Source of the DNA: Tannerella forsythia
GTDB taxonomy: Bacteria > Bacteroidota > Bacteroidia > Bacteroidales > Tannerellaceae
Reading direction: 5' to 3'
Length of the DNA: 64,000 nt
Assembly: GCF_003860135.1 (NCBI RefSeq)
Contig: NZ_RQYN01000005.1
Coordinates: 1-64,000, forward strand
The position numbers and the translations under genes were made by a program. Shown one piece after another: positions 13,883-42,578 of the stretch; positions within the stretch are counted from its first letter, which is position 1, and every line of letters begins with the position of its first letter. The notes under the pieces were generated by a model. That model made no database searches and was not told the origin of the DNA. It worked only from the letters and a program-made list of their open reading frames with translations.

Positions 13883-15676
13883 TTAGAGTTTTATGCCTTT
13901 AGCAACCTCCTTCTTTTCCATTTTGGGCATACTGCCTCCCACCGATGAGATAACAAGCTTATCTCCCATGATTTCTTTCACACCCGCCAAAGTACTAGGT
14001 AACGAAACATCGGGTACTATGGATGTTTCGCGTTTTACTTGTAATTGATTAAGAGGCTTTAAAGAGACAGCCTTGTCGGCAGTTACCTCTTCTCCTTCCT
14101 GTTCTTCTATCGGTTTTAGTGAGAGCTGGATTTCACGGTCTAACCGCACCAGCTCCTCTTTCAGGGTTTTCAACTCAGGCTCTTTCCGCCATGAACCTTC
14201 CACCACCTCTTTGAGTACCGGAATATCTTTCTGCAACTTTTCGTTTTCCGCCTGATACCTGTCCCTCAGTTTGGGCATAGAGTCAAGGGCATTCAGGAAG
14301 TTCAACGATGCCGTCTTTGGATCGGAGGCTATAATCCCATGATTGTAGTTGTAGAGAATATCGCCTGCGCCTTTGATAAAGAAGCGGTTTTGAATCAGGT
14401 CGAAACCGTCTTTGACCGTTGTCTCGGATTTGACCAGCAGATCGAAACCGTAAAGCGTTCCGATTCTCTCATGTGCTCCGTGTGTGCGGGCGTTATCGGC
14501 AATTTCATTCAATTTTAAGCGGACTTCCTTCGGATTGCTCCCTTGCAGACCGTCCAGCAGTACCGGATTCAAACGGGTAATACCGTCCGGTTGATACTGT
14601 ACACGAGCGCTAAAGGCTTTCATATCTTGGGATATGCGGCTGATAAAACGGTTGTTCTTCTCCACATTCGTAAGAGCATCCTCCAATTTATAGCGTGAAG
14701 AGGATTTACCTCGCATAAATGCTTGCCTCTCCGATTCGAGGGAGGCAATCTTCTTTTCCAAGCGGGCTTTCTCTAACAGTTCCGTATTCCCCGAAAGTAT
14801 GGCCACATATTCACTGAAATTCATCCCGTTTTTTTCATCCATGCTTCCTTCGTCGATTGTACGGCTACCCAATGAATTGTTCTTCAGCTGACGGATAAAA
14901 AGCTGTTTGTTATGCAATAACCCAAATTTGTACGCATCCAATGATTTCTCCACAGCATAAATGATCACATCAACCTTATTGCCGGCATATTGCTTGGCGA
15001 TTTCATTGCCTTTGCGGATACCCCGGCCATCCCTTTGCTCCAAATCCGACGGTCGCCACGGAGCATCCAAATGGTGAATGGCAACGCAGCGTTTCTGTGC
15101 ATTCACACCCGTACCGAGCATTTCAGTAGAACCAAACAACACACGAATTTTCCCCTCGTTCATTTCCTTAATCATGGTCTTACGGGCTTTGTCCGTTTTG
15201 GCTTCCTGAATAAAACATATTTCGTGCGATGGGATGCCATAATCTTCCATCAGTTTCCGTTTAATCTCCGAGCAGGGATTCCATTCGCCGGGCTTGTATG
15301 TTCCCAAGTCCGAAAAGATAAACTGTGTTCCTTTATGAGCCTCGAACTTTTTGTAGTATTCCGATACCATTTTAGCCACATGAGAAGCCTTATTATCTAT
15401 ATGGTCGCCGTAACTGTCAGGGTCAATCATTCGCATATCGAGACTCATCTTCCGGGCGTAGTCGGTTGCGATCAACATTTTGGCCTTCTCCTCCTTTTCC
15501 GACAAAGGCTCACGTCCCAGTATCTCCCCATTTCCCGTCTTGGCAAATTCCACTAACTTTCTGATAAACTCCTGTTGGTCGGGAGTGGGCGGTATATGAT
15601 GCAGGATTTCATTCTTTGCCGGGCGGTCGATACCGATATCCTCGGCAGAGCGATAATCCGTTATCTCCGCATAAAA
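13883..15676 (-). pseudogene. bmhA-like methylase/helicase gene, 3' fragment
   Basis: This is the helicase C-terminal end of the large methylase-helicase protein whose start is at 28923-32834. The frame is open from the junction at 15676 ([19 protein letters not shown]). It carries SF2 helicase motifs: [17 protein letters not shown], the motif V/VI region [18 protein letters not shown] and [23 protein letters not shown], then a long coiled-coil tail. It lacks any start codon of its own at the right place (only a GTG at 15553), so it is a severed fragment. BmhA proteins have been suggested to protect transferred DNA from restriction. Confidence 0.85.
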
Positions 15677-15707
15677 TCCGATTTTAGAGAGTTAATGGAT
15701 TGATATA

Positions 15708-15813
15708 GAGTAGATAGTAATGTGTCTACTCGGCTAAGGGGAACGGATAAGAAACGAGCGAGGTGCTTCTTACTTCTTGATTTTGCAACTTTACAAATAT
15801 CCCTTACTTCTTG
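15708..15813. repeat. repeats at the left end of the nested element
   Basis: GAGTAGA (15708) and TCTACTC (15725) form an inverted pair, and CTTACTTCTTG occurs twice (15769-15779 and 15803-15813), 34 bp apart. AGTAGATAG recurs near the right end at about 28883. Their position next to the element boundary suggests recombinase or excisionase arm sites. Nothing coding is seen between 15677 and 15932. Confidence 0.5.
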
Positions 15814-15932
15814 CTCGCAAAGGTACTGATTATCCTATGAAAAACGACTGAAAACAAAGAAAATCATTGCTCTCGTCAAATAATCTCCTAAATATTTCGC
15901 TATTAAGCACTTGGTATTGTATTTTTGTACAT

Positions 15933-16262
15933 ATGAGCTTAGAACGAAGAACAAACACAGAGGAATTGTTCCTCAAAATTGCACGACTCATAGAAGAAAG
16001 TCGGGCACGAATCGCCACGTCAATCAACCTCACAGAGGTATATACCAAGTATCGTATTGGGCAATACACCTTTGAAGAGGAGTTGTGGGGCGAAGAAAGA
16101 GCTCAATACGGTAAGCAAGTACTACAATCCCTTTCTGCTAAATTAACTAAACATTTTGGCATAGGGTGGAGCTATTCAAACTTGCGACAAATCAGACAAT
16201 TTTATTTAGCCTATAGCAATTTGACAGCTACTGGTTGTCAAATTGAAGATACTACACATTAG
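15933..16262 (+). pseudogene. truncated DUF1016 (YhcG N-terminal) gene
   Basis: 109 residues from ATG 15933, with the -7 box TATTTTTG just upstream (15920-15927). The pattern NLTEVYTKYRIGQYTFEEE, RAQYGKQVLQSLSAKL, GWSYSNLRQIRQFYLAYS is the N-terminal domain of DUF1016 proteins, which normally continue to about 340 residues with a PD-(D/E)XK nuclease domain. Here it ends soon after, in unrelated codons. Only the N-terminal domain is left, so nuclease activity is lost; it may be residue from an earlier cargo gene. Confidence 0.7.
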
Positions 16263-16311
16263 TGTCCTAAAGCTTTTTCTTTGGGTATATGGCTGTATTA
16301 AGGAAGAAACG

Positions 16312-16319
16312 TATTTTTG
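16312..16319 (+). promoter_or_regulatory. -7 box of the S1-ATPase/helicase operon
   Basis: TATTTTTG fits TAnnTTTG and lies 20 bp upstream of the ATG at 16340, giving a very short leader. Confidence 0.6.
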
Positions 16320-16339
16320 TAATCTAACTTTTGTGACGA

Positions 16340-19300
16340 ATGAAAGATTATCGAGAAATAGTTGTTGGTGATATAATTCAAGTAAAAATCACATCAATAA
16401 ACGAAGGATTGGGTGTCTTCGCTAGAATGCCTAACGGGCATGATGGGCTAATTCGACTTGCGGATTTCGCTTGGTCTAATCAAATAAATATAATTAAGAG
16501 CTACTCTGTAGGGGATATCCTCGATGTAAAAGTTATCAAGGAGTTACCCGATGGAAAGTTAAATCTTAGCCGTAAAGAATTACTTCCTAACCCCAAAACT
16601 CTAACACCCGACACTATATTGCAGGGGGTTGTTAAGAAAGTGGAAAAGTTTGGATTGATAGTCAAGATTGGGGATTTCTCTGTACTTGTTTTAAGGAAAG
16701 AATTACCATCCCCCCTTTATTATTCAGAAGGGGATCCTCTTTTTGTTGTCATAAAAGAGTGTACATATAATCAGGAAAAACACAGATATGATATCCTCGC
16801 CAGCGTGTTGGCGTTGCATGAGTATTTTGCACAAGACTTCAAGAATGGGGCTATCATTAAATGCAATTTTATTGAGCGAAAGAAAACGGAAGACTACAAC
16901 ATCTATGCTATAATCTCCATTAATGATAGGATGTTGATAAATGTTCCTTATCAATGTTTCATAGAACCATACCAATCAGAGCTGTTAAACAATGAACTAC
17001 CCATGGGTTGTGAGTTAGAATTCATGTTAAACTACAAAGAGAAGACTCGAACAATATCTCTTGATATGCGTCCAATCAAAAAAGCTCGCATTATAGAAAA
17101 TGAAGCATGGCTATGGTCCCAGTTGCATGTTGGAGATATTGTCGAGGCGGAGGTTATTGACTTAAATGATAGGGAGGCACGTGTTGTTATTACAAATACA
17201 GAAGTCGAGTACATTTTGCCTCGCGAAGAACTTTCTCCCAATAAGGTCGTTAGAGCAGGTGATGAGGTTTTTATAGGAGAACACATTCATATAGCCTACT
17301 TGGGTAACGAAGATGGTAGATTGCATTTTAGTCGACGCTTTGTTGTGAAGGACAAGTATGATGAATCATTATACGACTTGCAGTTATCACAGTTGCTCCA
17401 AACAATGGGGCTGACCACGAACAAGTTTGCTGGTAAGTTGATAAAGATTAAGTCAGATTATTTTCTAAAAAATTTAATTACAACAGGGGAGCCAGATGAA
17501 AAAAACAACGGTAAATTACTGATTGATCCTGTAAATGGGAAAAATCTAATCGCAATAATAGATAATAAACTAAGGAATTTCTTTTCAGAAAGTTGTTATT
17601 ATGAAGTTGAACTAAATCTAGCTTCTAAAGAATACAGATTCAAGCAAGGTACTCCTTATATGTTTTGTGTAACCTCCAACAATATAAAAGAAGTTACAGA
17701 CCCCTACAAAGAATCTGTATCGCTTTCGTTTAAGCAGCATACAAGTCCAAACACAAACACTAGTGTGGCCAATTTATTGGAAGAAGTAGGCAAAAGTCTG
17801 TATTCGAGCAAGAAACGAATGTTTTTTGAACTTTTACAAAATGCTGATGATGCAGCTTCAACAAATGGTGTGAAAGTCAAGGTGCAAATAGCCGGGAAAT
17901 ACCTTGTCCTCACTCATGACGGATATTCCTTCAATAAGGATGACTTTGAATCAATAACATCAGCAGCAAAAAGTACAAAGAGGGCAAATGATAAAAAAAC
18001 AGGCTATAAGGGTATTGGCTTCAAGTCTGTTTTCACAAACTCTCACTCTGTGCTTATTAAAAGTTCTGGATATACATTCGCTTTTGACAAGGAATGTCCT
18101 ATTTACGATAGTTTTGAGGGTTTCTATCACCTTGTAAATGATATAATTGACGATAAGGCAAAGCAGGAGGAATTTAATCATAAATATGCCAAATTCAAAC
18201 GGGAGTTTAATGGAGTTAAGGATATACCTTGGCAACTCCTTCCTGTTTGGAAAGAGGGAGCTAAGCTAGAAATTGTTGATTCGATTTTTAACAAAAATGA
18301 AAATGTCGCTATTGCCCTTAAAATGGATGATGACACATTGGTAGACTATGGTAATGCGGTGAAAGAGGTATTTGAAGAACCCCGTTTCATGCTCTTCCTG
18401 CGTAAAACTAATCGTGTACAGCTAATACAGGGTAAAGAATGTCTTACTATTCAAAAGAACAGATCTGAAGATGGAAAATTCATTTCACTTGTAAATTCAT
18501 TCGACAAGAAAAACAGAGTCGAGGATTATAGTATCTTTAGGCTCGATAGCATACCTGTTAATGACCAAGAGTTTAAGAATGCGGGGATTGCCATACGTCG
18601 TGATGAGCGAATTAACAACCGAGGCGAATCGGAAAGCTATTTTGTGCGCACGGATTCAGAGGGGAATATAGTGGGAGAAGTAACAGGTATACCCGACCGT
18701 ATTGCATCTACTATTGATACTACTCTTTCTTTTGCGATTAAACGGGATGAATACGGACACATTCAGCCCTTGGGGAGTGACACTTTATCTCTTTATGCTT
18801 ATTTGCCGATGAATGAACATCGGTTTAAGTTTCCGTTTTTTATCAATGCAGACTTTATCCCCAAGTCTGATCGTGAAGGAATACAAAGTGATAACCCATG
18901 GAATCATTTTGTATTCTATACAATAGGAAATGCCATTGTTAGAATGGTTGCTTCCTATGCATCTTTTGATGAACCTGAATACTTGAATTTGTTGCCAACA
19001 AAATTTTTCCAATCTAGTAGTCATGACACTGCAGCATTAGTTGATGCATTCAATCGAGGATATGACACAGCTCTGAAGACTGAACGCTTTATCGTCAACG
19101 ATGTAAATGACATCGTATCTGCCTCTGAGATCATCTATGATGATTCTGGCCTATCTGAGATAATTGGAAATCCAGCATTCTATACTTTACTCAATACAAA
19201 TAAGCATCTGCCACACAGGTTATTAAAGTCTAATTGCCTTGCAAGAGCTTTGTTTCAGATTGACAAGTTTGATGTAGATTCTATATGTAAAATCTTGAGC

Positions 19301-21922
19301 TCTGATGTAGATTCATTGTCCCAATGGCTGATTACTTGTACAGACGATATAAGAAATGGCTTTTACCAATGGTTGGCATCTAATGAAGCAGCTCATTCAT
19401 TGGTTTATCGAATCCCCACTTTCCTTTTTGGCACAAATTGGAGGTCAATAAGCCAAATAAGTTTAGATAATAAGGAAATCATTTTGACAGACAAAATACT
19501 TCCAATGGTGGATGTATTATGTAAGTTAGGATTCTGCATATCTGAAAATCAGTTGAACGAACATCCGTTGAGCTCATTCTTAAATACCCAAGATGAAAAA
19601 GATATATTCAAAAAAATACAAGAATGTTCTATTTCAAACCTCTCATACAACGATAGACTTACTCTTTTTGAGAATTGTTTAGAGTTTGATGGTGTCGGGA
19701 AAGAGATGCTGAAGAAATGGGCAATCTTTAAAAATCAAAATGGAGATTACACTCCACTAGGACAGATGTCTGTAAACAATGAGAATTGTCCAATATGGCT
19801 CTATCCTTTTACATTGAATAAGAGTGAATACAATCAAATGCTGTCTGCATATTTGATTCCTTCCTCTGATGTGTATTCCTCTGTAGTTGAATTAAATATT
19901 GAAACTATCACCGAAAGTGTAGATTTGCTTGAGGTCTACATCCACTTTAGAGGAGAATGGAATAATTCATTTACCGAGACCCTTTTCCGTAAATCAAACA
20001 TTTCTAAGCAAAGTCTTTTAACAATTGTTGAACAATCAGACAATCGTACAAAAGCAAATTATGTGCATACCATTAAGGATATATCGCTTATTAGTAGTGA
20101 ACAGTATCCTGAGACTTCTTTTACATACAGATTGATAAAACTGGCGGCACAAGATGATTCAACGATTACTTATGTTCGATCAATCATTACTATTGATGAA
20201 AAAAAATTATCTGACTATACTCTTAAAGATGAGTTCACTTTAGAGATTAATGACAAAAGAGTTGGATTTTCTTTGTCCCAACTTCTCCCATCACTTTCGT
20301 CCACATCTGCTTTAAGTAGTATAGTCTCAAATTTCACGTCAATTCATCGTTGTGATGAGATTTTTGCTCAGACAGAAGTGTCCCCAAAATATGTTTATGA
20401 TCAATTGAACAAATTATTAAAGGAGTCAAGTTCCTTAATTTCAGAAGATCAGTTCTGCTTTCTGATGGTATATCATAAGAGCTTGGGGTATTCGATTTTT
20501 GCCAATAGCCTTAGACCTCATATCCGTGTTAATGACGAGTCGCTATTCGTTAGAATCCTTGATAATTGTTTCCGGCGAGGGCTAGGAGAAATTTTAGGCT
20601 CATTTGTCAGAGATGGAGGAGTACTTTATCCTTTCCCGAATTTAATTGGTTCCTACTTTGATAGTGAAGAATATACATTAAATTCAGAACGTACACCGAA
20701 TAAGATCCTAACCTGGGCTAATTCGAACGAAAAAAAGCAATTTCTAATTCAAATCGGGCTTCATGACAATCAAAGCAAGGAAATTATTCGTAGAAAATCC
20801 TTTAAGGATAAGAAATTCGAAAGTATATGGGGAATTACAAATCCTAGTATAATCAACTCTTTTATGAATTGGGTAGCGGCTTCCTTCTATCTTCCTATTC
20901 AAGATGAAAACCAAGTTAAGGTTTTGTATACATTGTTCAAGTCCCTCAATATTGCAAGACAATACAATGAGATCGATTTCTTAGAAGCTAAGGAGTGGAC
21001 GAATAGTTTATATTTGGATTGGAAGAAAGGAACTGATCTTAAAATATCCATTATTGAAGGAGCACTTCCGTATAGGGGTGTGTATAACAATACTTATCTG
21101 TTTAAGGATTATTTTGGCGAATATATATATATAGCCACATCAAAGACAATTTATATCTCCTCAAATAGGGAACCCGCTGTTATTCTTGCAGATCTGTATT
21201 CTAATTCATCCCGATTGAATTGCCCTTTTACTAAGAATGATTGGGACAAAATTTTCTTGGTTTCTGCAGATGTTGTAATGCAAAAAGATATGCGTATAGC
21301 AGAGTTGGAACGCGAGCTTGAACAAGCAAGGAATGTTTCATCACGAGAATATCTAGGAGATGAAGAGTGTTATGGCAATGTTTTGGAAAGAGGCAGTGTT
21401 GATAAGGAGAGGCGTATAGAACTTAACGTCGAAGCTCGTATAGCAGCTAAGGAATTTCTTGACGCATTGTCAGATTTTGACTGTTCTCAATGGGATCCAT
21501 CTGAAGGAAATGGTCTAATAAAAGATGCTATAAAATATAAGAATGAGTTTATTACTGTTGTTGTCACCAGTTCTATAGGGAGGAAGCTATACCTCCATCC
21601 AAGATTGTTTGCTGAACTCATGACAAACAAAAACAATCGTCTTCTAAATTATGGATACGATCGAAAGATCCATCCCATCAATTTCGATGAAACCTTCAAA
21701 GACAACAAAGATGTTAATCTAATCTTTGATGCTGACATTGTCACACCCGAGGAATTTGCACACCTTGCAAATAGATATATGCATTCAAAGAGAACATGTT
21801 TTGTAATCGAAAACATTAGGTACTCTGCTTCTGAGCAAATAAAAGGTTTTGGATTGGATGAAAAGAAAGAAGACGCCGAGGTCTATAACAATCTGAGCTT
21901 TGATGATATATTTGATTTTTAG
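16340..21922 (+). CDS. 1860-residue protein with S1 domains and sacsin-like GHKL ATPase
   Basis: The N-terminal 340 residues carry at least three S1/OB-type RNA-binding modules: GDIIQVKITSINEGLGVFARM to GKLNLSRKEL (about 9-83), ILQGVVKKVEKFGLIVKIG (about 95-150) and GDIVEAEVIDLNDREARVVI to GRLHFSRR (about 262-335). An HSP90-like ATPase of the sacsin/NO VEIN type follows: FFELLQNADDAA near 496, LTHDGYSFNKDD near 525, GYKGIGFKSVF near 554. The remaining 1200 residues are mostly helical, with a coiled coil near 1650 (MRIAELERELEQ) and an unassigned C-terminal domain. It is 6 bp from the helicase-PIN gene, so the two form an operon. I infer an RNA-sensing defence role; the family is not one I can name. 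Confidence 0.8.
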   Translation: MKDYREIVVGDIIQVKITSINEGLGVFARMPNGHDGLIRLADFAWSNQINIIKSYSVGDILDVKVIKELPDGKLNLSRKELLPNPKTLTPDTILQGVVKKVEKFGLIVKIGDFSVLVLRKELPSPLYYSEGDPLFVVIKECTYNQEKHRYDILASVLALHEYFAQDFKNGAIIKCNFIERKKTEDYNIYAIISINDRMLINVPYQCFIEPYQSELLNNELPMGCELEFMLNYKEKTRTISLDMRPIKKARIIENEAWLWSQLHVGDIVEAEVIDLNDREARVVITNTEVEYILPREELSPNKVVRAGDEVFIGEHIHIAYLGNEDGRLHFSRRFVVKDKYDESLYDLQLSQLLQTMGLTTNKFAGKLIKIKSDYFLKNLITTGEPDEKNNGKLLIDPVNGKNLIAIIDNKLRNFFSESCYYEVELNLASKEYRFKQGTPYMFCVTSNNIKEVTDPYKESVSLSFKQHTSPNTNTSVANLLEEVGKSLYSSKKRMFFELLQNADDAASTNGVKVKVQIAGKYLVLTHDGYSFNKDDFESITSAAKSTKRANDKKTGYKGIGFKSVFTNSHSVLIKSSGYTFAFDKECPIYDSFEGFYHLVNDIIDDKAKQEEFNHKYAKFKREFNGVKDIPWQLLPVWKEGAKLEIVDSIFNKNENVAIALKMDDDTLVDYGNAVKEVFEEPRFMLFLRKTNRVQLIQGKECLTIQKNRSEDGKFISLVNSFDKKNRVEDYSIFRLDSIPVNDQEFKNAGIAIRRDERINNRGESESYFVRTDSEGNIVGEVTGIPDRIASTIDTTLSFAIKRDEYGHIQPLGSDTLSLYAYLPMNEHRFKFPFFINADFIPKSDREGIQSDNPWNHFVFYTIGNAIVRMVASYASFDEPEYLNLLPTKFFQSSSHDTAALVDAFNRGYDTALKTERFIVNDVNDIVSASEIIYDDSGLSEIIGNPAFYTLLNTNKHLPHRLLKSNCLARALFQIDKFDVDSICKILSSDVDSLSQWLITCTDDIRNGFYQWLASNEAAHSLVYRIPTFLFGTNWRSISQISLDNKEIILTDKILPMVDVLCKLGFCISENQLNEHPLSSFLNTQDEKDIFKKIQECSISNLSYNDRLTLFENCLEFDGVGKEMLKKWAIFKNQNGDYTPLGQMSVNNENCPIWLYPFTLNKSEYNQMLSAYLIPSSDVYSSVVELNIETITESVDLLEVYIHFRGEWNNSFTETLFRKSNISKQSLLTIVEQSDNRTKANYVHTIKDISLISSEQYPETSFTYRLIKLAAQDDSTITYVRSIITIDEKKLSDYTLKDEFTLEINDKRVGFSLSQLLPSLSSTSALSSIVSNFTSIHRCDEIFAQTEVSPKYVYDQLNKLLKESSSLISEDQFCFLMVYHKSLGYSIFANSLRPHIRVNDESLFVRILDNCFRRGLGEILGSFVRDGGVLYPFPNLIGSYFDSEEYTLNSERTPNKILTWANSNEKKQFLIQIGLHDNQSKEIIRRKSFKDKKFESIWGITNPSIINSFMNWVAASFYLPIQDENQVKVLYTLFKSLNIARQYNEIDFLEAKEWTNSLYLDWKKGTDLKISIIEGALPYRGVYNNTYLFKDYFGEYIYIATSKTIYISSNREPAVILADLYSNSSRLNCPFTKNDWDKIFLVSADVVMQKDMRIAELERELEQARNVSSREYLGDEECYGNVLERGSVDKERRIELNVEARIAAKEFLDALSDFDCSQWDPSEGNGLIKDAIKYKNEFITVVVTSSIGRKLYLHPRLFAELMTNKNNRLLNYGYDRKIHPINFDETFKDNKDVNLIFDADIVTPEEFAHLANRYMHSKRTCFVIENIRYSASEQIKGFGLDEKKEDAEVYNNLSFDDIFDF

Positions 21923-21928
21923 TCTATT

Positions 21929-24217
21929 ATGTACTACTCAAGAGATCAGCATAAGCGGTTCTTAGATAAAGAACTTGCTGCGATAAGTGAAACATATCTT
22001 GATTTGCTAAACTCAAAGGCTATTGCCTTATTAGCTAGCAATGAAGTGTATGTCGCACAGTTCGTTAAACTTGATTTCAAAAAGGATGAAAGCATAGATC
22101 CTGAGCGAAATATCTTGGGGGCTGCACAATTGATGCTTCGCTTTAAGAAAGATAAAGGTATTCCTCGCAAAAACGAGTATTTTACAGCCGTCATTTTAGA
22201 GACAGATATGTGTTTGCCCAAAAATTGGGGGGAAATTACTTGGGGAAAACTGAGGTCACATCAAGTAGAATTTTCCGAGGTTCATTGTGTCTGGCAGGGT
22301 AAATCCGATGAAAATGGCTACTTGCTTTGTGGATTTTCTGGAATATCACATGAAATGTCTCAATATCTTCTTGAGAACAACCTTGAAGGCTGCGTAGTAG
22401 TCTTAGGACCTCAAGAACCTCCCATGGAGTATTATCAAAACCTTATTAGTATTGTCACAAATAATTTCCCAATATTACCTGCTGCAGAAATATTGGATTT
22501 TGAAAGACAACAGTTTATATGGAATCCTGAAGAGATAAACTCTAATAAGGAACAAGTAGAAAGAATTTTAAGCTCCTTATCCACACACGATGAATTGGTA
22601 TTTCAAGGACCTCCTGGAACAGGGAAAACCCATTTGATGGCAGAACTTATTGCTCATTTAATAGCAAATAATAAAAGTGTGTTGGTTACAGCTATGACCA
22701 ACCGTGCCTTAATTGAACTTGCAGAAAAGGAAAGTCTGAAGGATTTTCTTGCTCAGAAAAGAATTAAGAAAACCAATGTTTCTGCCGATGAAATGATTTC
22801 CTGTAAGAATCTATGCCCCGTTGAAAGCAAGCGAATCACATGCATGCCTGGCAATGTTACGTTATCAACCTTCTACAATTCTAGTGGATGGGCAAAACAA
22901 TGTTACGAAGAACGTCCATTCGATTATGTTATAATGGATGAAGCTAGTCAGGCATTATTCGGTATGATTGCAGCATGTAAAAATTTAGGGAAGAAAATCA
23001 TCTGGATAGGCGACCAAAATCAAATGCAGCCAATAGCCTTACTTAGTGAGGAAACGATTACAAGAAACGACTATGGGATGCTTGTAAATGGATTTCAAAC
23101 TTTGTGTGATAACTTTAAGTTGAAGTCATATATCCTTACAGAGACCCATCGACTCTTACCCAATGCAGCGGCATTGACTAGTTTGTTTTATCATACAGAA
23201 ATAAAGTCTGTTGCTAAATTTGAATATCTATTCGGAGATAGCGATCTAAAATTTGCACCAGAGAATGGCGGTTGCTCCCTGCTCTTTAAAAACATGCCTG
23301 TCGGCGAAAAAGCAGACCAAGACTGCTGTCAGTATGTCGTAGATGTAATATTCGATATTCTAAAAAGAAATAATCGGCTTAAAATTGCTGTCCTCTCCAA
23401 ATTCAGGGCAACGGTACGTATGCTCCAAAATTGTTTTATCAGCAAACTGGGGGCTTTGGAAAATATTTTAGTAGATACTGTAGAGAGAGTTCAAGGTATG
23501 ACTTGTGATGTGTGCCTATATTACATACCGAATACAATGATGGGCATGTCTCTAGCAAGACCATTATTTAATGTAGCAACAAGTCGAGCAAAACAACTCA
23601 CAATAATAGTGTCAGATCCGTCTATAATGACTTGTGTCTGTGATAAAACAGTGCATGCCTATTTAGAGAAGGTTGTAAAGAAAGATTTTAAATCACTCAT
23701 AGAACCTGAAAGGTTTGGGCTATCAGAATCGAAGGCGATAAGAAATGTGGGTATAAATCTTGTTCCTAAAGGGAAGATAGACATTTCAAAATTTGAACGA
23801 CCTAAAAAAGAGATATCAAAAACTAGAAAAAATTATTACGTTATAGACACGAATGTCTTTATTAATTATCCAGACATATTGGATAAGATTGATAAAAAGT
23901 ATTCGATAATTCTCTCTGCAAAAGTAACTGACGAACTTGATAAAATGAAGATCCGTCTGGACGATCAAGGCAAGAAAAATGCAGAAAAGGCATTACGCCT
24001 TCTAAATAATGCTCGTGATATAATCTATGAATTTGCAGACACTTCGTTATTGCCAGAAGATTTTGACAAACGATCTCCAGATAATATGATTATCTCAGTG
24101 GCATTGAAGTATAAATCGGAAAACCCAATAATGCTTACTTCTGACAATGGATTGCAACTAAAATCTAAGATCTTGGGAATATCAACAATAAGTCTAAGAG
24201 ATTTCTTAAAAAGGTGA
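21929..24217 (+). CDS. UPF1-like SF1 helicase fused to a PIN nuclease
   Basis: 762 residues. Residues 1-200 are unassigned. The helicase has Walker A GPPGTGKT (about 227), motif Ia TAMTNRALIEL, the UPF1-type Walker B MDEASQA (about 335), motif III WIGDQNQMQP, ETHRLLP, VERVQGMTCDV (about 520) and motif VI NVATSRAKQL (about 549). After a linker of about 80 residues comes a PIN domain (about 636-762): VIDTNVFINYP, VTDELDKMK, SPDNMIISVAL and LTSDNGLQLK supply the acidic residues expected for a metal-dependent ribonuclease. This joins RNA translocase and RNase in one chain, partnered with the S1-ATPase protein. It is convergent with mobA (26-bp gap). Confidence 0.85.
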   Translation: MYYSRDQHKRFLDKELAAISETYLDLLNSKAIALLASNEVYVAQFVKLDFKKDESIDPERNILGAAQLMLRFKKDKGIPRKNEYFTAVILETDMCLPKNWGEITWGKLRSHQVEFSEVHCVWQGKSDENGYLLCGFSGISHEMSQYLLENNLEGCVVVLGPQEPPMEYYQNLISIVTNNFPILPAAEILDFERQQFIWNPEEINSNKEQVERILSSLSTHDELVFQGPPGTGKTHLMAELIAHLIANNKSVLVTAMTNRALIELAEKESLKDFLAQKRIKKTNVSADEMISCKNLCPVESKRITCMPGNVTLSTFYNSSGWAKQCYEERPFDYVIMDEASQALFGMIAACKNLGKKIIWIGDQNQMQPIALLSEETITRNDYGMLVNGFQTLCDNFKLKSYILTETHRLLPNAAALTSLFYHTEIKSVAKFEYLFGDSDLKFAPENGGCSLLFKNMPVGEKADQDCCQYVVDVIFDILKRNNRLKIAVLSKFRATVRMLQNCFISKLGALENILVDTVERVQGMTCDVCLYYIPNTMMGMSLARPLFNVATSRAKQLTIIVSDPSIMTCVCDKTVHAYLEKVVKKDFKSLIEPERFGLSESKAIRNVGINLVPKGKIDISKFERPKKEISKTRKNYYVIDTNVFINYPDILDKIDKKYSIILSAKVTDELDKMKIRLDDQGKKNAEKALRLLNNARDIIYEFADTSLLPEDFDKRSPDNMIISVALKYKSENPIMLTSDNGLQLKSKILGISTISLRDFLKR

Positions 24218-24243
24218 TATCATAGACCTTATTCTTCTGCCTT

Positions 24244-24675
24244 CTATTTTTTCCTCCTACGCTCAAATTCCATTGTCAGCTGTATCGCTTGTACTTGTAA
24301 TCTGATGATAGCTGCGGAGTATCTTTCGAGCTGGTGTATCATTCTTTGGGCTGTTTTAACCGAGTGGTAGCTATTGAGCGTCTTGACGGCTTCGTTGTAA
24401 CTCACCCCGATGACTCTCAATTTAGTGAGGATGTTGCTCAGCTCTCTTAGGTACGGCTCTGAGGACTTATCCTCTGTGATGACCTTAAAGGATTCGTTCA
24501 ATAGCCGTCCTCTGACATAGTCGCTCTTGGTCTTTGCTCCCGACTTTCGGTATAGCTCGATGAGCTTTTGCTGGTCTTCGGGCTTGGGTATTCTGATGTG
24601 CCATCTGTCCCATCGTGGGCAGGTGGCACATCTGCCGTCTGGCTGGTCTGTTTTCTTTCTTTTCATTGGTTTCAT
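24244..24675 (-). CDS. MobA-like mobilization accessory protein of the nested element
   Basis: 143 residues, ribbon-helix-helix type relaxosome protein: HIRIPKPEDQQKLIELYRKSGAKTKSDYVRGRLLNE, then a helical part with VIGVSYNEAVKTLNS. This is the layout of CTn MobA proteins (compare 49987-50424), which bind oriT and recruit the MobB relaxase. The relaxase gene that normally follows is absent; the cargo helicase ends 26 bp away instead. The protein would thus need a relaxase from a host element. The CxxC in CATCPRWDRWH near the start is a small peculiarity. Confidence 0.8.
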   Translation of the reverse strand: MKPMKRKKTDQPDGRCATCPRWDRWHIRIPKPEDQQKLIELYRKSGAKTKSDYVRGRLLNESFKVITEDKSSEPYLRELSNILTKLRVIGVSYNEAVKTLNSYHSVKTAQRMIHQLERYSAAIIRLQVQAIQLTMEFERRRKK

Positions 24676-24708
24676 TGTTTCTTAATCACGACTTTGGAGT
24701 GATTGATA

Positions 24709-24780
24709 CCCCTTTTAGGGCAAGGGTCTTTGTGCGACAAATGGCAATTTGTGGTACAAAGACACACCTTGCTATGCACA
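24709..24780. other. candidate oriT of the nested element
   Basis: After CCCCTTTTAGGG comes a long inverted repeat: GCAAGG (24720-24725) and GTCTTTGT on one arm, ACAAAGAC, a 3-base bulge ACA, and CCTTGC (24767-24772) on the other, followed by TAT. An inner stem ACAAAT/ATTTGT lies in the loop. The same design with different bases lies upstream of the other mobA (50521-50585), so pairing is kept while sequence changes. The position directly upstream of mobA fits a transfer origin. Confidence 0.6.
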
Positions 24781-24879
24781 AAAAAAGGATAGGTTCAATG
24801 TCTGATGGCTCAGCATTCAGTAGGGCTGTTAATTCTTGAGCTTCGAGCTTGCTCGATAACTCCAAGACTAAGTTCAAAG

Positions 24880-25019
24880 GTTATTTCAGAGGTCGTTAGA
24901 TGACTTCAAAGCTAAGGTTAGACCTTGTTCGCTGAGTTCCTCTGGAAGTTGGTCTAAATAGACTAACTGACCAATTGACCAACTGACCTAAGTCTAGGCT
25001 GACTTGAGTCGGTCTCAAC
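24880..25019. repeat. ACTGACCA/ATTGACCA repeat cluster
   Basis: Short direct units ACTGACC, ATTGACC and ACTGACC follow one another (about 24966-24988), next to inverted pieces GGTCTAAATAGAC and GAGTCGGTCT. No gene is seen between mobA and the HTH gene at 25020. The cluster may hold binding sites for the relaxosome or for the excisionase-like proteins. Confidence 0.5.
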
Positions 25020-25328
25020 CTACTTTCTGACTGTTAGAATGGGGTTATAATGCCTTTCGAGCATCGCTTGGATGTCGCTCTGTTTGTAGAGTATCTTACC
25101 TCCTATCTTGTAATAGGCTAATGTGCCGTTGCTACGGTACTCTTGGAGCGTTCGTGTGCTGAGTTTGAGTAGCTCGCAGATCTCCTCGCCAGTGAGGAAG
25201 ACCTCACCGCCTAACATCGGGCGAGCCGAGGCACAATAACGCTCCAACTTGGCTAATATACCCTCCATCATCTGCGTAAATAGCTTCATTTGAGGGTTTT
25301 CACTTGTAATGATTTCATTCTCTGCCAT
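25020..25328 (-). CDS. HTH excisionase-like protein
   Basis: 102 residues; the C-terminal winged HTH reads FLTGEEICELLKLSTRTLQEYRSNGTLAYYKIGGKILYKQSDIQAML, the HTH_17/excisionase pattern. It is the second of a pair with the gene at 25336-25605 (7-bp gap), the same arrangement as the backbone pair at 11010 and 13395. It probably directs excision of the nested element with its own recombinases. Confidence 0.8.
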   Translation of the reverse strand: MAENEIITSENPQMKLFTQMMEGILAKLERYCASARPMLGGEVFLTGEEICELLKLSTRTLQEYRSNGTLAYYKIGGKILYKQSDIQAMLERHYNPILTVRK

Positions 25329-25335
25329 AGTGCGT

Positions 25336-25605
25336 TCATTCAGTTTGTGCGTTCAATACTTCCGTGATGTCACTCTCTTTGTAGTAGCACTTATGTCCGA
25401 CCATTGAGAAGGGAATTTTGCCCGTATCTCTGAGTGTTTGCAAGGTACGCTTGCTGATGCTGAGCCTACGGCAGACGGCTTCGTTGTCGAGCCACGCTTC
25501 TGTTTCGGGGGGATTGCCGATGATCAGCTCCGTGCGGTGGATGAAGTCGGCAAAGGAGGAGCGGAGCTGCTCCCACGCTTTGCCCTCTACGATGATAATT
25601 TTCAT
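25336..25605 (-). CDS. HTH excisionase-like protein
   Basis: 89 residues from the ATG at 25605 (MKIIIVEGKAWEQLRSSFAD); in-frame sequence farther upstream lacks similarity to the family. The HTH reads AWLDNEAVCRRLSISKRTLQTLRDTGKIPFSMVGHKCYYKESDI. It resembles the Xis2c-like protein at 11010-11369 in build. It is the first gene of the small control operon of the nested element. Confidence 0.8.
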   Translation of the reverse strand: MKIIIVEGKAWEQLRSSFADFIHRTELIIGNPPETEAWLDNEAVCRRLSISKRTLQTLRDTGKIPFSMVGHKCYYKESDITEVLNAQTE

Positions 25606-25923
25606 TGCTTCGGTTGGTTTTAATTTGCGTTTCTGTATGGTGGCAAGTCGGAGCAAATGCGCTCGCTTGCCTTTTCTTTTGGAGGCAAAATTAGGGCTAA
25701 GAGTGCAACGCTCAAGGGATTGGTGAGGGACAAGGAAAACGAGGGAAAAGGCAGGCAAAGGAGCAGGCTAAGAAAGGGCTTACTTGCGGTAATGAGATGA
25801 GGAGTCGGCTCGTTCCTATGGTCGGAAATGAGGTAATTGAGCCTATTAAGGCTAGCCTTATAAAAGAGCAAACAGATTATGCTCTGTTTTTAAGCCTTGC
25901 TTGCGTCCAAAGAGCCTGAGTAT

Positions 25924-26048
25924 GTCGTATTCGTTCGGGCTTTTCTCCGCGAAGGGTGGTCTTGCCGAGCAAGGTGGGAGGGAAGGAATACGACCGCTAT
26001 GATACAAAAAGTCCTGCGGTGGAGATTCTTCCCTCCTCCGCAGGACTT
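25924..26048. terminator. two strong inverted repeats between recombinase and HTH genes
   Basis: GTCGTATTC (25924-25932) pairs with GAATACGAC (25986-25994), and AAGTCCTGCGG-T-GGAG (26009-26024) pairs with CTCC-T-CCGCAGGACTT (26033-26048), 15 of 16 positions. They lie in the roughly 500-bp gap after the recombinase gene, which holds no gene. The second is strong enough to be a transcription terminator for the recombinase operon, though it lacks a T run. Confidence 0.55.
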
Positions 26049-26103
26049 GACCTTGCTGGGCAAACGGACCGCCCTTGTATCTTTGCCCGAAATGAAGACG
26101 ACC

Positions 26104-27393
26104 TTAGGCGGTGGACGGCTCGGCTTCGCTGGCTGTGGCTCGCTTGCGTGGTGGGCAAACCCTCAGAGCCTTGCGAAGCATCTGCGTCTGCTCGCTCCCC
26201 ATCAGTGGGAGCATCTCCTTGGCGATTTTCTGCTTGCTTACCTTGGCATATAGCTCTGTGGTGCTGATAAAGCGATGTCCTAACATCTTACTCACCGTTT
26301 CAATCGGCAAGCCGTTCTCCAAACAGATGGTTGTGGCAAAGGTATGCCGTGCGGTGTGCGAACTCGCCTCTGTATGGGGAGAGCATCCAGCCTTGATGAG
26401 TAGTTCACGGATTTTGCGATTGAAGTGGCTGTTTACGGGAAACTCTCGGAAGTATAGCCCCTCTGAGCGTCCTTGCCCTACAAAGGCGAGAATCTCCTCG
26501 GCAATGGGTAGCAATGGTACGATACAACAATTCTGCGTCTTGGTGCGGTAGAGCGAGATGTATCTGCGTCCATCGCTGAGGGTATAAACGTCCTCCATCC
26601 GCAATTTCTTGAGGTCAGAGAAAGCCAAGCCAGTGAAACAGCCCAAGAGGAATATTAGTCTGATATGATTATCCACAGAGCGATGCGGACGATAAGCCAA
26701 TAGCTTTTGCAGTTCGTCACCGCTGAGCGAGTTGCGTTCGTAAGCAGGAGTGTCTATGTCGATGAGGTCAAAAGGATCTTCTCTCACGACTCCCTCCATC
26801 AAAGCTCTGCGAATTACTTGGTGCAGGTGTCTGAGGCGGTTGGCAACAGAGCTTACCTTATTCCCTAAATCTCGGAGCATATAGAGCCGATAATCCTCTA
26901 TCAGCCCCTTGTTCACTTCGTAAGGCATACATCCGCTTCGCCCCCTCGAAGCCAAAAAGCGAGCAAAGCTCTTGTAACTATCCCGAAAGGCTTTTATGGT
27001 GGCTTTACTGAGAGATTTACCCTCATAAGCCCTCTTAGCCTCGCAGACCGTTTGATATAGCTCTAAGATGGATTGCTGGGGCTTTTCCTTGCGAAGAAAT
27101 TGCTCCTTGAGGTACTCGGCTGTGATGTATTGCTCCTCTCTAAGAATGCGTTCATAGAGTGCATTCAGTCCTTGCTCTACGGCATTCAGTGCGTTGTTGA
27201 TGCCTTGAGCCGTGAGGGAGCTTGCTTTTACTCTTGCTCTCTGTGCGTTCCAATCTTCGGGGGCTGTTTGTTGCTTGGTAGAGAACGAAGCAGTCTTGCC
27301 ATTACAGGAAATGCGACAACGGATAAGACATAGCCCCTGCTCATTCGCCTTGCTACGATCGATAAAGAATAAAACTGAGAATGTACTTTTCAT
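26104..27393 (-). CDS. tyrosine recombinase, second of a tandem pair
   Basis: 429 residues. N-terminal Arm-DNA-binding region (MKSTFSVLFFIDRSKANEQGLCLIRCRISCNGKTASFSTKQ), SAM-like core domain, then the catalytic part: FTGLAFSDLKKL, where the first catalytic Arg of classical enzymes is replaced, as in IntDOT-type recombinases; HTARHTFATT (His-x-x-Arg) near 345; LGHRFISTTELYAKV with the Tyr nucleophile near 390. It follows the other recombinase by 10 bp. Its counterpart in the right-hand element is 62054-63256. Confidence 0.9.
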   Translation of the reverse strand: MKSTFSVLFFIDRSKANEQGLCLIRCRISCNGKTASFSTKQQTAPEDWNAQRARVKASSLTAQGINNALNAVEQGLNALYERILREEQYITAEYLKEQFLRKEKPQQSILELYQTVCEAKRAYEGKSLSKATIKAFRDSYKSFARFLASRGRSGCMPYEVNKGLIEDYRLYMLRDLGNKVSSVANRLRHLHQVIRRALMEGVVREDPFDLIDIDTPAYERNSLSGDELQKLLAYRPHRSVDNHIRLIFLLGCFTGLAFSDLKKLRMEDVYTLSDGRRYISLYRTKTQNCCIVPLLPIAEEILAFVGQGRSEGLYFREFPVNSHFNRKIRELLIKAGCSPHTEASSHTARHTFATTICLENGLPIETVSKMLGHRFISTTELYAKVSKQKIAKEMLPLMGSEQTQMLRKALRVCPPRKRATASEAEPSTA

Positions 27394-27403
27394 TGTCTTG
27401 CTT

Positions 27404-28657
27404 TTAGTTGGTTAAACGATAGTGAGCAATCTCGGGGAGGATACGCTCTACATCCCGAAACACACGTTCGGGCGAAGTCTCGGCATAGACTTGCGTAGTC
27501 TTGATTTGACTATGCCCCAGCATCTTCGACACGCTCTCGATAGATACCCCTTCGGAGAGGGTCATCTGAGAGGCAAAGGTGTGGCGAGCCATATGGAAGG
27601 TGAGGCATTTATTGATTTTGCAGAGCTTCGCCATCTTCTTCAGATGAATATTGACCGTATCACAGCCAGGAATGGGCAGAAGATAGCCCTTGGGCGGTTC
27701 GTGGCGAAAGGCTCGGGTGTGAATGCCTCGGTACAGCTCAATGATGGCAGCAGCCTCGGGCAAGAGGGGGATGTGGCACACATTGCCAGTCTTGATGCGA
27801 GGCTTGCGTATCCAAGTCATACCGCCCTCCTCGATAAGATGTTCAGCCGTAAGGTGGTAAATATCCGTGTACGATAAGCCTGTATAGCAAGCAAAGACAA
27901 ACATGTCCCTTGACACTAGCTCATAATCTCCCAATTGCGTTTCATCTAAGGCGATAATACGCAAGAGCTCCTCCTTGGTAATGTAGCGTGGCGAACCGAC
28001 ATCCCAGCGGATAGAATAGCCCAAGAAGGGATAAGTGTCGATGATATGCCGTTTGTATAGGTCTTTCAGTAGCGAAGCCAGCATAGAGAGGTAGCCAGCC
28101 GTGGTATTGAGTTTGAAAGCTTTCTCTCTGGAGAGATAAACCTCAAAGTCTTCAACCAAAGCTCTACAAACTTTCTGAACAGGCAAGTCGCCTACTCGAT
28201 AGTGGTGTTTGATAAAAGCCTCGAAATGCTTGCGAAATAGCAAGATGCACTTATACCTGCGTTCACTGCGGTCTATGCCCACACGCTCTCGAAAGCGTGC
28301 CAAATAGCCTTCCAAATGATAGAGCAAGCCTTGGCTATCGCTGTTTAAGCCAAAGAGCGTGTTTTTAACCTCCTCAGCTGTTACTATTTCCCCTTTTCTG
28401 CTCTGCAAGTGTTCAAAGGCACGATGTACAGCGAGTTGTAAGCGGTCGAGTTCTGCGTTTACGGATACAGCTTCGGCACTCTTGCCCACGAGTCTGCTCT
28501 TACGGCTATCCCATAGCTGAGGAGAGCAAGCAATTTTACAACTGAACTGCACCATTGTTCGCCCCACACTGAGGCGAGCCATAATGGGGCTTTTACCTTC
28601 CTTACTCTGTGTGCCTCGCTTGAGGTAAAAGAGTAGCTTCAATGTCTTTTCTTTCAT
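27404..28657 (-). CDS. tyrosine recombinase, first of a tandem pair
   Basis: 417 residues of the same superfamily: arm-binding domain (KLLFYLKRGTQSKEGKSPIMARLSVGRTMVQFSCKI), core-binding domain, and catalytic motifs CYTGLSYTDIYHL, FHMARHTFASQ near 360 and LGHSQIKTTQVYAET near 385. It is a close relative of 60771-62000. Two adjacent recombinases are typical for one class of Bacteroidales integrative elements. The gene lies at the right end of the nested element, transcribed inward, with -7 box TAACTTTG at 28673-28680 (minus strand). Confidence 0.9.
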   Translation of the reverse strand: MKEKTLKLLFYLKRGTQSKEGKSPIMARLSVGRTMVQFSCKIACSPQLWDSRKSRLVGKSAEAVSVNAELDRLQLAVHRAFEHLQSRKGEIVTAEEVKNTLFGLNSDSQGLLYHLEGYLARFRERVGIDRSERRYKCILLFRKHFEAFIKHHYRVGDLPVQKVCRALVEDFEVYLSREKAFKLNTTAGYLSMLASLLKDLYKRHIIDTYPFLGYSIRWDVGSPRYITKEELLRIIALDETQLGDYELVSRDMFVFACYTGLSYTDIYHLTAEHLIEEGGMTWIRKPRIKTGNVCHIPLLPEAAAIIELYRGIHTRAFRHEPPKGYLLPIPGCDTVNIHLKKMAKLCKINKCLTFHMARHTFASQMTLSEGVSIESVSKMLGHSQIKTTQVYAETSPERVFRDVERILPEIAHYRLTN

Positions 28658-28672
28658 TGTCGTTTTTGTTTA

Positions 28673-28800
28673 CAAAGTTAGACCTCTAAGGGATAGTTGT
28701 CGCTATGCAAAACATTGAAAACAAGAGAGAAAACACCATTTTAGTTACCACATTTTGCTTACCTCTTCCGAAGCCCCTAAAAGGGAACGATTTGGTAACT
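28673..28800. promoter_or_regulatory. recombinase promoter and candidate arm sites
   Basis: CAAAGTTA at 28673-28680 is a minus-strand TAnnTTTG box for the recombinase operon. Beyond it GTTACCA (28744-28750) and TGGTAAC (28793-28799) form an inverted pair in the context (T/C)AGTTACCAnA. The same motif pair lies ahead of the related recombinase at 60530-60620. The stretch 28658-28922 carries no gene I can support. Confidence 0.5.
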
Positions 28801-28922
28801 GAACTCGCTCTTTCAACCGCTCTTTTTTGCCTTTTTTCGTGGTGCAAGCCAATGCACCAAACCGAAAGAAGCTCTGTTAATCAAGTAGATAGACTTTTCT
28901 CGCTTCCCCTTACTCCTAACTC

Positions 28923-31900
28923 CTATATTTCGGCATAGAATGCCGCCAGCTCAGGGACTTTAATGAAATAGCGGAAGCGTTCTTTCTGTACAATTTCATT
29001 CGTTACCGAAAACTCGTAATCAATCGATTTCTTGGCGAAAATAGCCGCCCACGCATCGAATGTGGTAATGCCTTGCCGCTCCAGTTCGTTCGGACGAAGG
29101 TATTTGAATAAAAGATACAGTTCCGTAAGACTGTTGGAAATGGTGGTTCCCGAAAGGAATGTCGCACCCAAATCTTTACCTGTCCTGTCCTGAATCGTCC
29201 GCAGAGCAAAAAGCATATTGAGGGCGCGCTGTGAACCTTCGGCATTTCCCAATCCCGCGACACGGTCATGTCTGGTCGTAAAAGTCAGGTTTTTGAAACG
29301 ATGCGATTCATCAACGTAAAGATGGTCGATACCCATCAGGCGAAAATCGACCGTGTCATCTTTCCGGTTCTCAATCTGAAAAGCAATACGCTCCAACTTG
29401 GCTTCGAGGTTTTGTTGTCTTTTAATAAGTCCCTTTTCCATTGCACGAGATATTTCCTTACCTTCCCTCCGAAGGAGTTCCAGATTCTCTTCCACACTAT
29501 CGAGTTCCGCTTGCAGTATCTGCCGCTGTATCTCGGGCGATTGAGGGATCATGCCGAACTGTTCGTGTGTTAGGATAATGGCATCCCAATTATTATTTTT
29601 CATCTCATGGAAGATTTTTATCCGCTTGGCCGGAGTAAAATCTTCTTTGCCGGGATACAGCACTTTGGCATTGGGATAAGCCGTACAGTAGGTTTGAGCA
29701 ATCTCGTGAACATTGGCTTTCAAGGCAATAATAACAGGCTTATTGACTAGTCCTAACCGTTTTTTCTCGTATGAGCTTACGCACATGATTAGCGTTTTTC
29801 CTCCGCCAACTTCGTGATCGATAATCCCTCCGCCGTTGAGGATATCCATCCATATGGCATCTTTTTGACTCTTATATAGATCGGGAATACCTAATCCCTT
29901 CAAGTCCAGATCGGGAAAAGTCTGATGCGAACCGTCATAATCAGGACGTACAAAACAGTTGAATGTGCGGTTATACTTCTCTGCCAACCGTTCTTTGAAC
30001 TCCTCGGATTGTTCATTCAACCAGTCGGTAAAGCCGTTTCGTATTTCATCAATCTTTGAGTTGGCAAGTTGAATAGATTCAGCGTCTCGTATCTTCACCT
30101 CTCTCAATTCTCCGTCAATGTATTTATTGACCTTCTTTGTAATGTCCGGCGATGTGTTGTGCAAGGCATGTTTCATCAGGGCAATGCCGTCGAACGTTCG
30201 ACTTTGGGTCTTTACCGCAAATTGATCCCATATCTTTACGTTTTTACTGTTTGTAGTAAGGGTATATTCGTCCCGGCTTGGGGCATAGTGTATCGAAACG
30301 TCCGTGTCGAACAGGTATGAAGCATATTTACTGTAAATTCCTGTCGGAATCCATCGTTCGCCGAAATTAAAATCCAGCTCATCGAAAAGAATTGGCCGGG
30401 GAATCGCTTCTCGTAAAGCCGAAAGAGACTCTTTGGCCGCTTTATGGTCAGCATGGTTCTCCAGAAAACGTTCCACCTGTTCGGCTTTGGAAATGACATT
30501 GCCACTGATGAATTTATCCTTGATTTCATAAGCCGCGAGCATGGGATTGAAGTAAACCGTGCCTTTTAGTTCATCTAATAGCTCTTCGGATGTCCTTCCC
30601 GTGAGTTCCGCCATATACTCAAGGTTCACGGTTGCATATTTGTTGAGAGAAGCAGTCAGGGCTTCTCTGGCATTACGGGCATGAGTTATCTCGTTCGGAT
30701 TGAATGCGACCGGCTGGCGAAATATATCGGCTTTGATTGCTTTTCCGTCGATATAGCGTTCGAGCGAGAGGATTTCCGTTCCTCCCGCGTCCATCTTGAT
30801 CAAGCTGAGATTTTTGGGGTCGTTGATGTTTCCAAAACGACAGATAAAATCGTCGTAAAGCCTGTTTAGCATCTCGCGGAGAGCGGGACTAGCCTCTAAT
30901 CGCGTTGCTTCGTTACTATACAGGTGATGATAAGTGTCCCGTATCTCGATATAAAGTGATGCTTTTGCCTGTTGTGTAGTCGTCAGTTGGAGTGGATGGA
31001 ACATCGGCTGCAATCCGTTCATATCCCGCAAATAGCCGATACGGTTGTTTTCATCTGTTATTAATGAACCTTCACGGTAATGAGATGGCATTTCTTCAGT
31101 TCGGTAATAAGGTATGGGAGTAGCTTGTTTTTTCTGTTCACTCTTTAATACAGTTTTATATGCCATCTCTTCTCTCCAATCCATAAATGGGATTTCGGGT
31201 TGTTGGGCTTTTGGTTTAAGTTGTTTGTTTTTTCTTTTAGGCTTTTTGACTTGGCTACGTTCCTCTTGTGAGAAACCGAAGAGGTCGTAAAGCGTAATGA
31301 CTGGTGTTTGCGAAACAGAGCCAGCTTTCGCCTCCACATTCGGCTCATTGTTTACAGAGAATCCTTTGTCAAAAAGAGAGCGTTGATGTATTTCTCCGGT
31401 AGTCTGTTTCGGTACAATTGTCTCCATTTCTTTTGGGGAGTAGTCTTCGGGCAATGGCGGACGTTCCAAAAAAAGTTTTTGGTCCGATTCGTTTATAAAT
31501 TCACTAAAAGACTCTATATCCTCTTGCGTGGGTTGATAACGTTCACTCGAAGAACGTAATTGCTGTTCGTTTGATAGCCGGATCTCTTCCAACTCCTCGT
31601 CGGAAAAAACGTCTTCAAGTCCCAAAGGATTTTCTTCCCAATCCAGCTGTGCGGCACTTTTTATTTCTTCTTGATGAGTATAGATATGATAATGCCGCAA
31701 ATCCAGATGCCGGGCAAAGTCTTCTTTCAGCATTTGTCCCAAATCCCGGGCAATACCGTCTATCCCTCCTTCGTGCGTAAAGACAATGGCCGGTTTACCG
31801 TAAGGATCGGTATCTACTTTTGAATGGGTTTGTACCACCCGTGAAAAGTCGCGAAACAGATTGTTGATCGAAATACCGTTCGACAGTTTCCGGCTTTCGA

Positions 31901-41200: not shown

Positions 41201-41454
41201 ATATGATTAATGAGTTGGATAATCTTTGTAACTTAGCAAAGTCCGATGTAAATCTTGATACCGAAGAAGTTTTCAAATTAGAAATTACATCATTCATTAA
41301 GGGTTTGCAGAAGCATACTATACGTTATCCCAAAGGGAAGACAAAAAAAATAAAAGAATTAGAAGCCGACATTAAAAGTAGATTAAGTAATGATAAAAAT
41401 ACTAATATAGCTTTGTTGTTGGATTTATTACAGAACGAAATTGATGGTAAGTAA
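38226..41454 (+). pseudogene. large P-loop ATPase, one-base frameshift
   Basis: About 1075 residues if the frame is repaired. The N-terminal part has Walker A IVGSYGTGKSSF near 52-63 and Walker B WFIAIDEFGKF near 142, followed by LFVTTLHQGY (sensor-like). The C-terminal 660 residues are helical and unassigned. The first frame ends at TGA 39444-39446; the second is already open across the gap and reads RLSLGFDNAEEVIDKLSQ. Removing one A from the AAA at 39426-39428 joins them as DYSRLSLGFDN. This may be a real mutation, phase variation or a sequencing error. It could be the motor of the system, comparable to BrxC/PglY- or Dnd-type ATPases, but I cannot assign it. Confidence 0.75.
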
Positions 41455-42562: not shown

Positions 42563-42578
42563 CATTAAATATAGACAT

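Follow-up and report, generated by a model that had tools for sequence, protein, structure and literature searches.

Several described systems share single parts with the gene pair considered here, which we call A and B and which lies in 64,000 nucleotides of Tannerella forsythia DNA (the window: positions 1 to 64,000 of the forward strand of contig NZ_RQYN01000005.1, assembly GCF_003860135.1). Tiamat, represented in PADLOC by the ATPase TmtA, is listed as a single gene. Mokosh, in its types I and II, consists of an MkoA helicase of ~1100 aa or more together with MkoB, or of an MkoC helicase carrying a PLD domain, and the CoCoNuTs of types II and III (PMC11090510) comprise an Hsp70-like ATPase, a UPF1-like helicase (CnuH) and a coiled-coil GTPase of McrB type that belongs to the NxD group. 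For the Shedu-like defence protein VcSduA a GHKL domain has been suggested as the regulator of a nuclease, here a PD-(D/E)xK domain of the same protein (PMC12137116), while eukaryotic nonsense-mediated decay (NMD) couples the helicase UPF1 to the PIN endoribonuclease SMG6, and a link between NMD and bacterial PIN toxins has been put forward (PMC5031192).

An original prediction, made from the window's letters, described A as an array of S1 modules joined to an HSP90-like ATPase in 1860 residues and B as a superfamily 1 (SF1) helicase fused to a PIN nuclease, the two genes being 6 bp apart. Both open reading frames (ORFs) lie exactly at the positions given, and the domains are confirmed by Pfam and NCBIfam. 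We argue that A and B probably form a two-part defence system that has not yet been described, and we lean, by a modest degree, towards a mobile anti-phage system most likely acting on RNA, in which A would serve as sensor and switch and B would remodel and cut RNA.

Relation to described systems

The window A protein matches the TmtA profile (PDLC03972) at 1e-92 and 310 bits over residues 468-964 only (profile positions 18-429 of 1302), and a further PADLOC profile, PDLC03970, at 269 bits, the strongest stretch being 792-1198. To the broad set that PADLOC groups as TmtA it would thus belong partially, while the A protein of L033 (loci of our survey carry L numbers; 1124 bits, covering 1-1138 of 1302) and the solo proteins of L044 and L045 would belong to it strongly. 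It differs from Tiamat by its S1 array and its helicase partner, B standing next to A at 16 loci besides the window. With Mokosh, B has a UPF1-type helicase in common and matches MkoA at 1e-32, but the alignment is limited to the helicase part of MkoA or MkoC, the partner of B is a GHKL giant, B carries a PIN domain, and neither A nor B has a kinase or PLD domain in PADLOC or Pfam; its helicase can be termed only weakly Mokosh-like. The comparison first drawn, with Mokosh and NO VEIN-type systems, is better replaced by one with TmtA for A and, in logic, with the CoCoNuTs. From the latter the pair is set apart by gene content, its ATPase being HSP90-like rather than Hsp70-like and an McrB-type GTPase being absent: A gives no match to that family, B gives a weak P-loop match to the NCBIfam McrB model (14.8 bits versus a cut-off of 637), and the remaining genes of the insert that carries the pair encode MobC, helix-turn-helix (HTH) proteins and recombinases. 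With GHKL Shedu the pair shares an ATPase of the kind proposed to gate a nuclease, but VcSduA is a single protein without a helicase. It likewise shares with NMD a UPF1-family helicase coupled to a PIN endoribonuclease, but it is bacterial, fuses the two in one protein and adds an HSP90-like partner. As the original prediction had supposed, no named system with the A-B pair was found in PADLOC, NCBIfam or the part of the open-access literature that was searched.

Conservation and defence neighbourhood

The family was surveyed by searching with B alone and then inspecting the DNA upstream, which gave 19 B-family genes, a truncated B (L035) being left out of the count; a scan of GTDB with a degenerate helicase motif returned chiefly unrelated SF1 helicases, its useful yield being L046 and L047. 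Directly 5' of B stands an A-like gene in 17 of the 19 cases (gap -65 to +9 bp), and because of this regular adjacency we take A-B to be a real conserved module. The co-occurrence of homologues, a point on which the original prediction stood to fall, therefore held up. The two exceptions are L145, where 652 bp of contig precede B and contain no match to A, and L149 (259-3281), where three related genes of 300-361 aa occupy the place of A directly upstream of the helicase. A is divided into two ORFs at L147, and at L031 both A and B contain a stop inside the matched stretch, a pair that looks decayed. The window's own genome holds a second B copy, L042 (G000:C206), where the GHKL part of A is lost and an adjoining DEAD-helicase fragment reads like Cas3.

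The hosts span many Bacteroidota families, a Chitinophaga metagenome-assembled genome (MAG) and one Kiritimatiellota MAG. Of 41 genomes examined in the genus, that of the window alone has B, as do 2 of 395 genomes of a phylum sample at E<=1e-40. These low counts, together with the mobile insert and the BREX and restriction-modification neighbours described below, speaks against a housekeeping role in RNA surveillance akin to the quality control of NMD, which the resemblance of a UPF1-like helicase with PIN to UPF1-SMG6, and of an HSP90-like partner to a chaperone, might otherwise suggest; we consider such a role extremely improbable. No plasmid match reached 80% coverage of A or B. Carriage by phages was also considered, and the single-protein scans of IMG/VR returned no relative, an alignment scan yielding one weak helicase fragment. 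A different conserved gene run was seen at L038, L039 and L041, consisting of a UPF1-like helicase, a PIN protein of 754-926 aa (carrying OST-HTH in L038), a gene of ~210-228 aa and one of 536-544 aa.

The main ground for calling A-B a defence system is its recurrent linkage to defence genes, a link the original prediction had proposed and which is seen at several loci beside BREX, restriction-modification, Druantia-like or Argonaute genes. At L147 the BREX genes pglZ and brxL adjoin the pair, brxL overlapping A by 4 bp; Type IIG restriction-modification genes lie near it at L036, L148 and L151, accompanied at L036 and L148 by DruE-like (Druantia-like) helicases; a Type I HsdR-like gene lies 36 bp upstream at L146; a type II restriction-modification pair is found at L031 and a type III restriction-like gene at L046; and the genes upstream at L129/L154 are HsdR-like, LmuB-like, YhcG and prokaryotic Argonaute (pAgo). 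Defence neighbours thus recur and the DNA that carries the pair is mobile, and by genomic context the assignment to anti-phage defence is well supported. The Argonaute at L129 (1059-3137) stands 26 bp upstream of A and is itself preceded by an intact YhcG nuclease, an N-terminal fragment of YhcG being found upstream of A in the window. An Argonaute was also entertained as a second partner of the pair; the candidate beside B at L047 proved to be a Schlafen-AlbA protein with HATPase, and the Argonaute link is therefore limited to the one locus, L129.

Because many loci adjoin DNA-restriction genes, A-B may constitute a second line, perhaps acting when DNA restriction fails. The same neighbours, mostly concerned with DNA restriction, could however be read to mean that phage DNA or replication intermediates are what A and B recognise, with cleavage of DNA by the nuclease in the manner of Hachiman or Gabija. 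UPF1-like helicases do include DNA-acting members such as Dna2, and the modelled C-terminus of A resembles a DNA-nuclease fold, but this fold lacks the ExK motif, and S1 or cold-shock N-termini combined with PIN or HEPN tips are typical of RNA systems. We hold a DNA-targeting pair to be distinctly unlikely, and retain RNA as the more plausible substrate.

Domains, motifs and exchangeable ends

The ATPase of A is identified by a SACS match at residues 488-595 (40.5 bits versus a Pfam cut-off of 32.8) and a P_loop_sacsin match in NCBIfam (75.7 bits), the HATPase_c score being below threshold (16.4 versus 26.4), and both boxes of the Bergerat fold that mark the GHKL/sacsin group are kept (N box ELLQNADDA, G box GYKGIGF). 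Upstream of it A contains at least three predicted S1 domains. Its C-terminal part, for which the original prediction had asked for a structure, was modelled by AlphaFold2 with a predicted local distance difference test (pLDDT) score of 73, and the top VIA-align matches of the model are restriction-endonuclease-like folds (best Z 7.8). Since the ExK motif is missing, this PD-(D/E)XK-like end is presumably inactive; it is alike across the family, with an RSAxxGxLYL-like sequence. In B the UPF1-type helicase (AAA_11/AAA_12) is followed by PIN_4 at residues 637-756 (70 bits), and its nearest relatives of known structure, as judged by sequence, include SMUBP-2, SEN1, DNA2 and UPF1. Motifs I, II, III, V and VI of the UPF1/DNA2 clade are intact in the window copy (GPPGTGKT, DEAS, GDxxQ, VQGMT, NVATSR), as are the four conserved acidic positions of PIN_4 (D/E/D/D, in VIDTN, ELDK, PDN and SDN). 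Across the B family motif II reads DEAS in some members, including the window's, and EEAS in others. The single promoter claimed for both genes is unproven, the candidate being a Bacteroides-like -7 box, TATTTTTG, at 16312, which has no -33 partner and is one of 36 such boxes on the plus strand of the window.

Both outer ends of the pair vary across the family. The N-terminus of A carries S1, cold-shock or OB-like modules: S1 in the window and at L031 (there on an ORF just upstream of a stop), matches below the Pfam cut-off to cold-shock in the A protein of L047 and to S1 in that of L144, and in the set of L146 a domain for which the model (pLDDT 78) gives an OB-fold, matching best the RNA-binding domains of Rho and Lin28 (Z 6.3). 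The C-terminal tip of B is PIN in seven of the 19 genes (window, L031, L034, L042, L046, L129, L144), HEPN in one and neither in eleven, and the helicase-PIN fusion, although correctly described for the window, is not universal. In L047 HEPN_Swt1 with an Rx4H motif takes the position of PIN, an exchange of one RNase tip for another. At L047 (9476-15323) the HEPN-bearing gene is followed by the Schlafen-AlbA/HATPase gene and a reverse transcriptase gene. A PIN domain hidden in a neighbouring gene was sought where B itself lacks one; Pfam gives no match for the small genes that follow B in L033 and L032, while the gene at L145 was judged by eye.

The PIN module of the window is 62-78% identical to the full-length modules carried by divergent helicases and 52% identical to the shortened one of L031, a truncated copy that keeps three of the four acidic positions, as against 29-42% for the helicase core. 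Between the B proteins of the window and L042 identity rises from 32% in the helicase to 78% in PIN, the switch lying at the linker GKIDxxKFExxKKE. The helicase tree joins L042 to L034 (99/98) and to the HEPN-bearing L047 (100/100), whereas the PIN tree joins the window to L042 (98/100). Because the two trees disagree and identity jumps at the linker, the sequences indicate a transfer of the PIN module from one divergent helicase to another, or at the least that helicase and PIN have had different histories.

One question then is how far cleavage matters. A TmtA-type ATPase and a UPF1-like translocase could block phage by means other than cutting: they might strip or remodel its nucleic acid, or recruit host nucleases, with PIN or HEPN as optional additions. 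The eleven B homologues that stop directly after the helicase, the near full-length TmtA that serves as A in L033, the existence of solo TmtA (L044, 1678 bits), and the several gains or losses that the PIN labels require on the helicase tree all point this way. Yet the tips, where present, are PIN or HEPN with intact residues, and the identity at which full-length PIN copies are kept suggests that PIN matters where it occurs; a mode of action without cutting is in our judgement rather unlikely, if worth serious attention.

The mobile insert and the outer element

The pair is carried by an insert of ~13.3 kb that interrupts an N6-methylase/helicase gene on the minus strand. The N part of this gene (28923-32834) stops at 28923 after ...PELAAFYAEI and its C part (13883-15690) restarts at ~15690, so that the two frames join at FYAEI; 194 of the 195 plasmid records that match have 80% or more of the joined stretch together, with the gene uninterrupted across the joint. 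An imperfect 16 bp end repeat, TATYTCSGCATARAAT, flanks the insert, no exact target-site duplication being found at its ends. This occupied site, and the presence of B in a single one of the 41 genomes of the genus, mark the pair as horizontally mobile. The statement that A and B are the only intact cargo holds for this inner insert, which otherwise contains the DUF1016 fragment (a relic), MobC, two HTH genes and two tyrosine recombinases (Table 1). That the element is mobilizable is only indirectly true: MobC_2 lies in the insert, but no relaxase was seen within its ~13.3 kb, the relaxase at 48779-50002 and a coupling protein belonging to the outer element. The same recombinase module, sought elsewhere as a sign of cargo exchange, was seen in no other genome of a 247-genome sample of the order, one partial match of 73% occurring in a Prevotella record.

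Residence on an integrative insert, and the fact that PIN and HEPN are classical toxin folds, would also suit an abortive locus of toxin-antitoxin (TA) type, B being a general RNase toxin restrained by A and serving mainly to stabilise the mobile element. We regard this as very improbable, for the toxin domain is missing from most B homologues, A and B far exceed the sizes of TA pairs, and the locus repeatedly adjoins defence genes.

The outer element also contains, at 37373-45967, SspB, SspC and SspD genes of a phosphorothioation-type defence, followed by a GHKL ATPase and a response-regulator-like gene. SspC is present as two overlapping ORFs (38175-39446 and 39376-41454), probably through a frameshift.

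Table 1. Coordinates of the A-B pair, its domains and the insert that carries it
Feature	Position	Strand	Basis
Gene A, 1860 aa: S1 array, sacsin/GHKL ATPase, long middle region, PD-(D/E)XK-like C-terminal domain	16340..21922	+	ORF; Pfam, NCBIfam and PADLOC matches
S1 RNA-binding domains of A (predicted), residues ~9-79, 90-144, 263-310	16364..17269	+	PF00575 above cut-off
GHKL/sacsin ATPase domain of A, residues 468-755	17741..18604	+	Iterative family hidden Markov model; motifs
PD-(D/E)XK-like C-terminal domain of A, residues ~1686-1791, no ExK motif	21395..21712	+	AlphaFold2 model; alignment
Gene B, 762 aa: UPF1-like SF1 helicase fused to PIN_4	21929..24217	+	ORF; Pfam; motifs
Exchangeable PIN module of B: linker GKIDISKFERPKKE and PIN	23789..24214	+	Identity comparison; trees
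Insert of ~13.3 kb with A-B inside N6-methylase/helicase gene (ends approximate)	15660..28942	.	End repeat; frame rejoining; plasmid records
Truncated DUF1016_N (YhcG-type) fragment, 77 bp upstream of A	15867..16262	+	PF17761, 70.9 bits, profile positions 2-81 of 137
MobC-like mobilisation accessory protein (MobC_2)	24244..24675	-	PF19514, 153 bits
Two tandem tyrosine recombinases of the insert	26104..28657	-	PF00589, 63 and 68 bits

A proposed mode of action

RNA-binding front ends that can replace one another, together with a GHKL clamp, a motor of UPF1 type and an RNase tip, lead us to propose RNA capture followed by RNA cleavage. We infer RNA to be the target, and a signal passing from A to B, a trigger and an outcome for the cell are likewise supposed; what the sequences themselves show is the domain content, the conserved adjacency, the defence neighbours, the horizontal mobility, the intact active-site motifs and the modular exchange of the RNase tip. 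A would be the sensor and switch, the OB-fold modules at its N-terminus (S1 in the window) binding RNA, and the sacsin-type GHKL ATPase with the long middle region would form a clamp, driven by ATP, through which B is recruited or licensed. The control of a nuclease proposed for the GHKL domain of VcSduA fits this scheme. The helicase B could then load onto the RNA captured by A, and its exchangeable C-terminal tip, PIN in the window and HEPN in L047, would cleave that RNA, which might be phage transcripts or, in an abortive response, host RNA.

The RNA sensing and cleavage suggested originally thus gains from the swappable RNA-binding N-termini and from the replacement of PIN by HEPN in one relative, but several observations weigh against it. 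In 11 of the 19 B homologues a fused nuclease is missing, so that cutting by B cannot lie at the core of the system in every case. An N-terminal module is nearly absent from the A proteins of L033 and L037, S1 and cold-shock N-termini are restricted to particular lineages, and the Z score of the N-terminal OB-fold model is middling. UPF1-like helicases also work on single-stranded DNA, and PIN folds can act on DNA.

Implications

If the proposed mode of action is correct, the Tiamat-type ATPases grouped in PADLOC would comprise a branch whose members act together with a helicase-nuclease partner, and the family, for which we found no account of mechanism, would gain one that can be tested. With RNase tip and RNA-binding front end both exchangeable, the pair would amount to a modular immune platform directed at RNA and found repeatedly beside DNA restriction. 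More tentatively, and as a possibility to which we give less than even weight, A-B could be an immune complex for RNA surveillance in bacteria, added onto BREX and restriction systems. Its HSP90-like clamp, equipped with OB-fold RNA readers that can be interchanged, would license the UPF1-type helicase and the swappable RNase tip (PIN or HEPN) that it carries, making the complex a prokaryotic counterpart of UPF1-SMG6. The pairing of UPF1 and PIN also bears on the proposal that nonsense-mediated decay arose from bacterial conflict systems.

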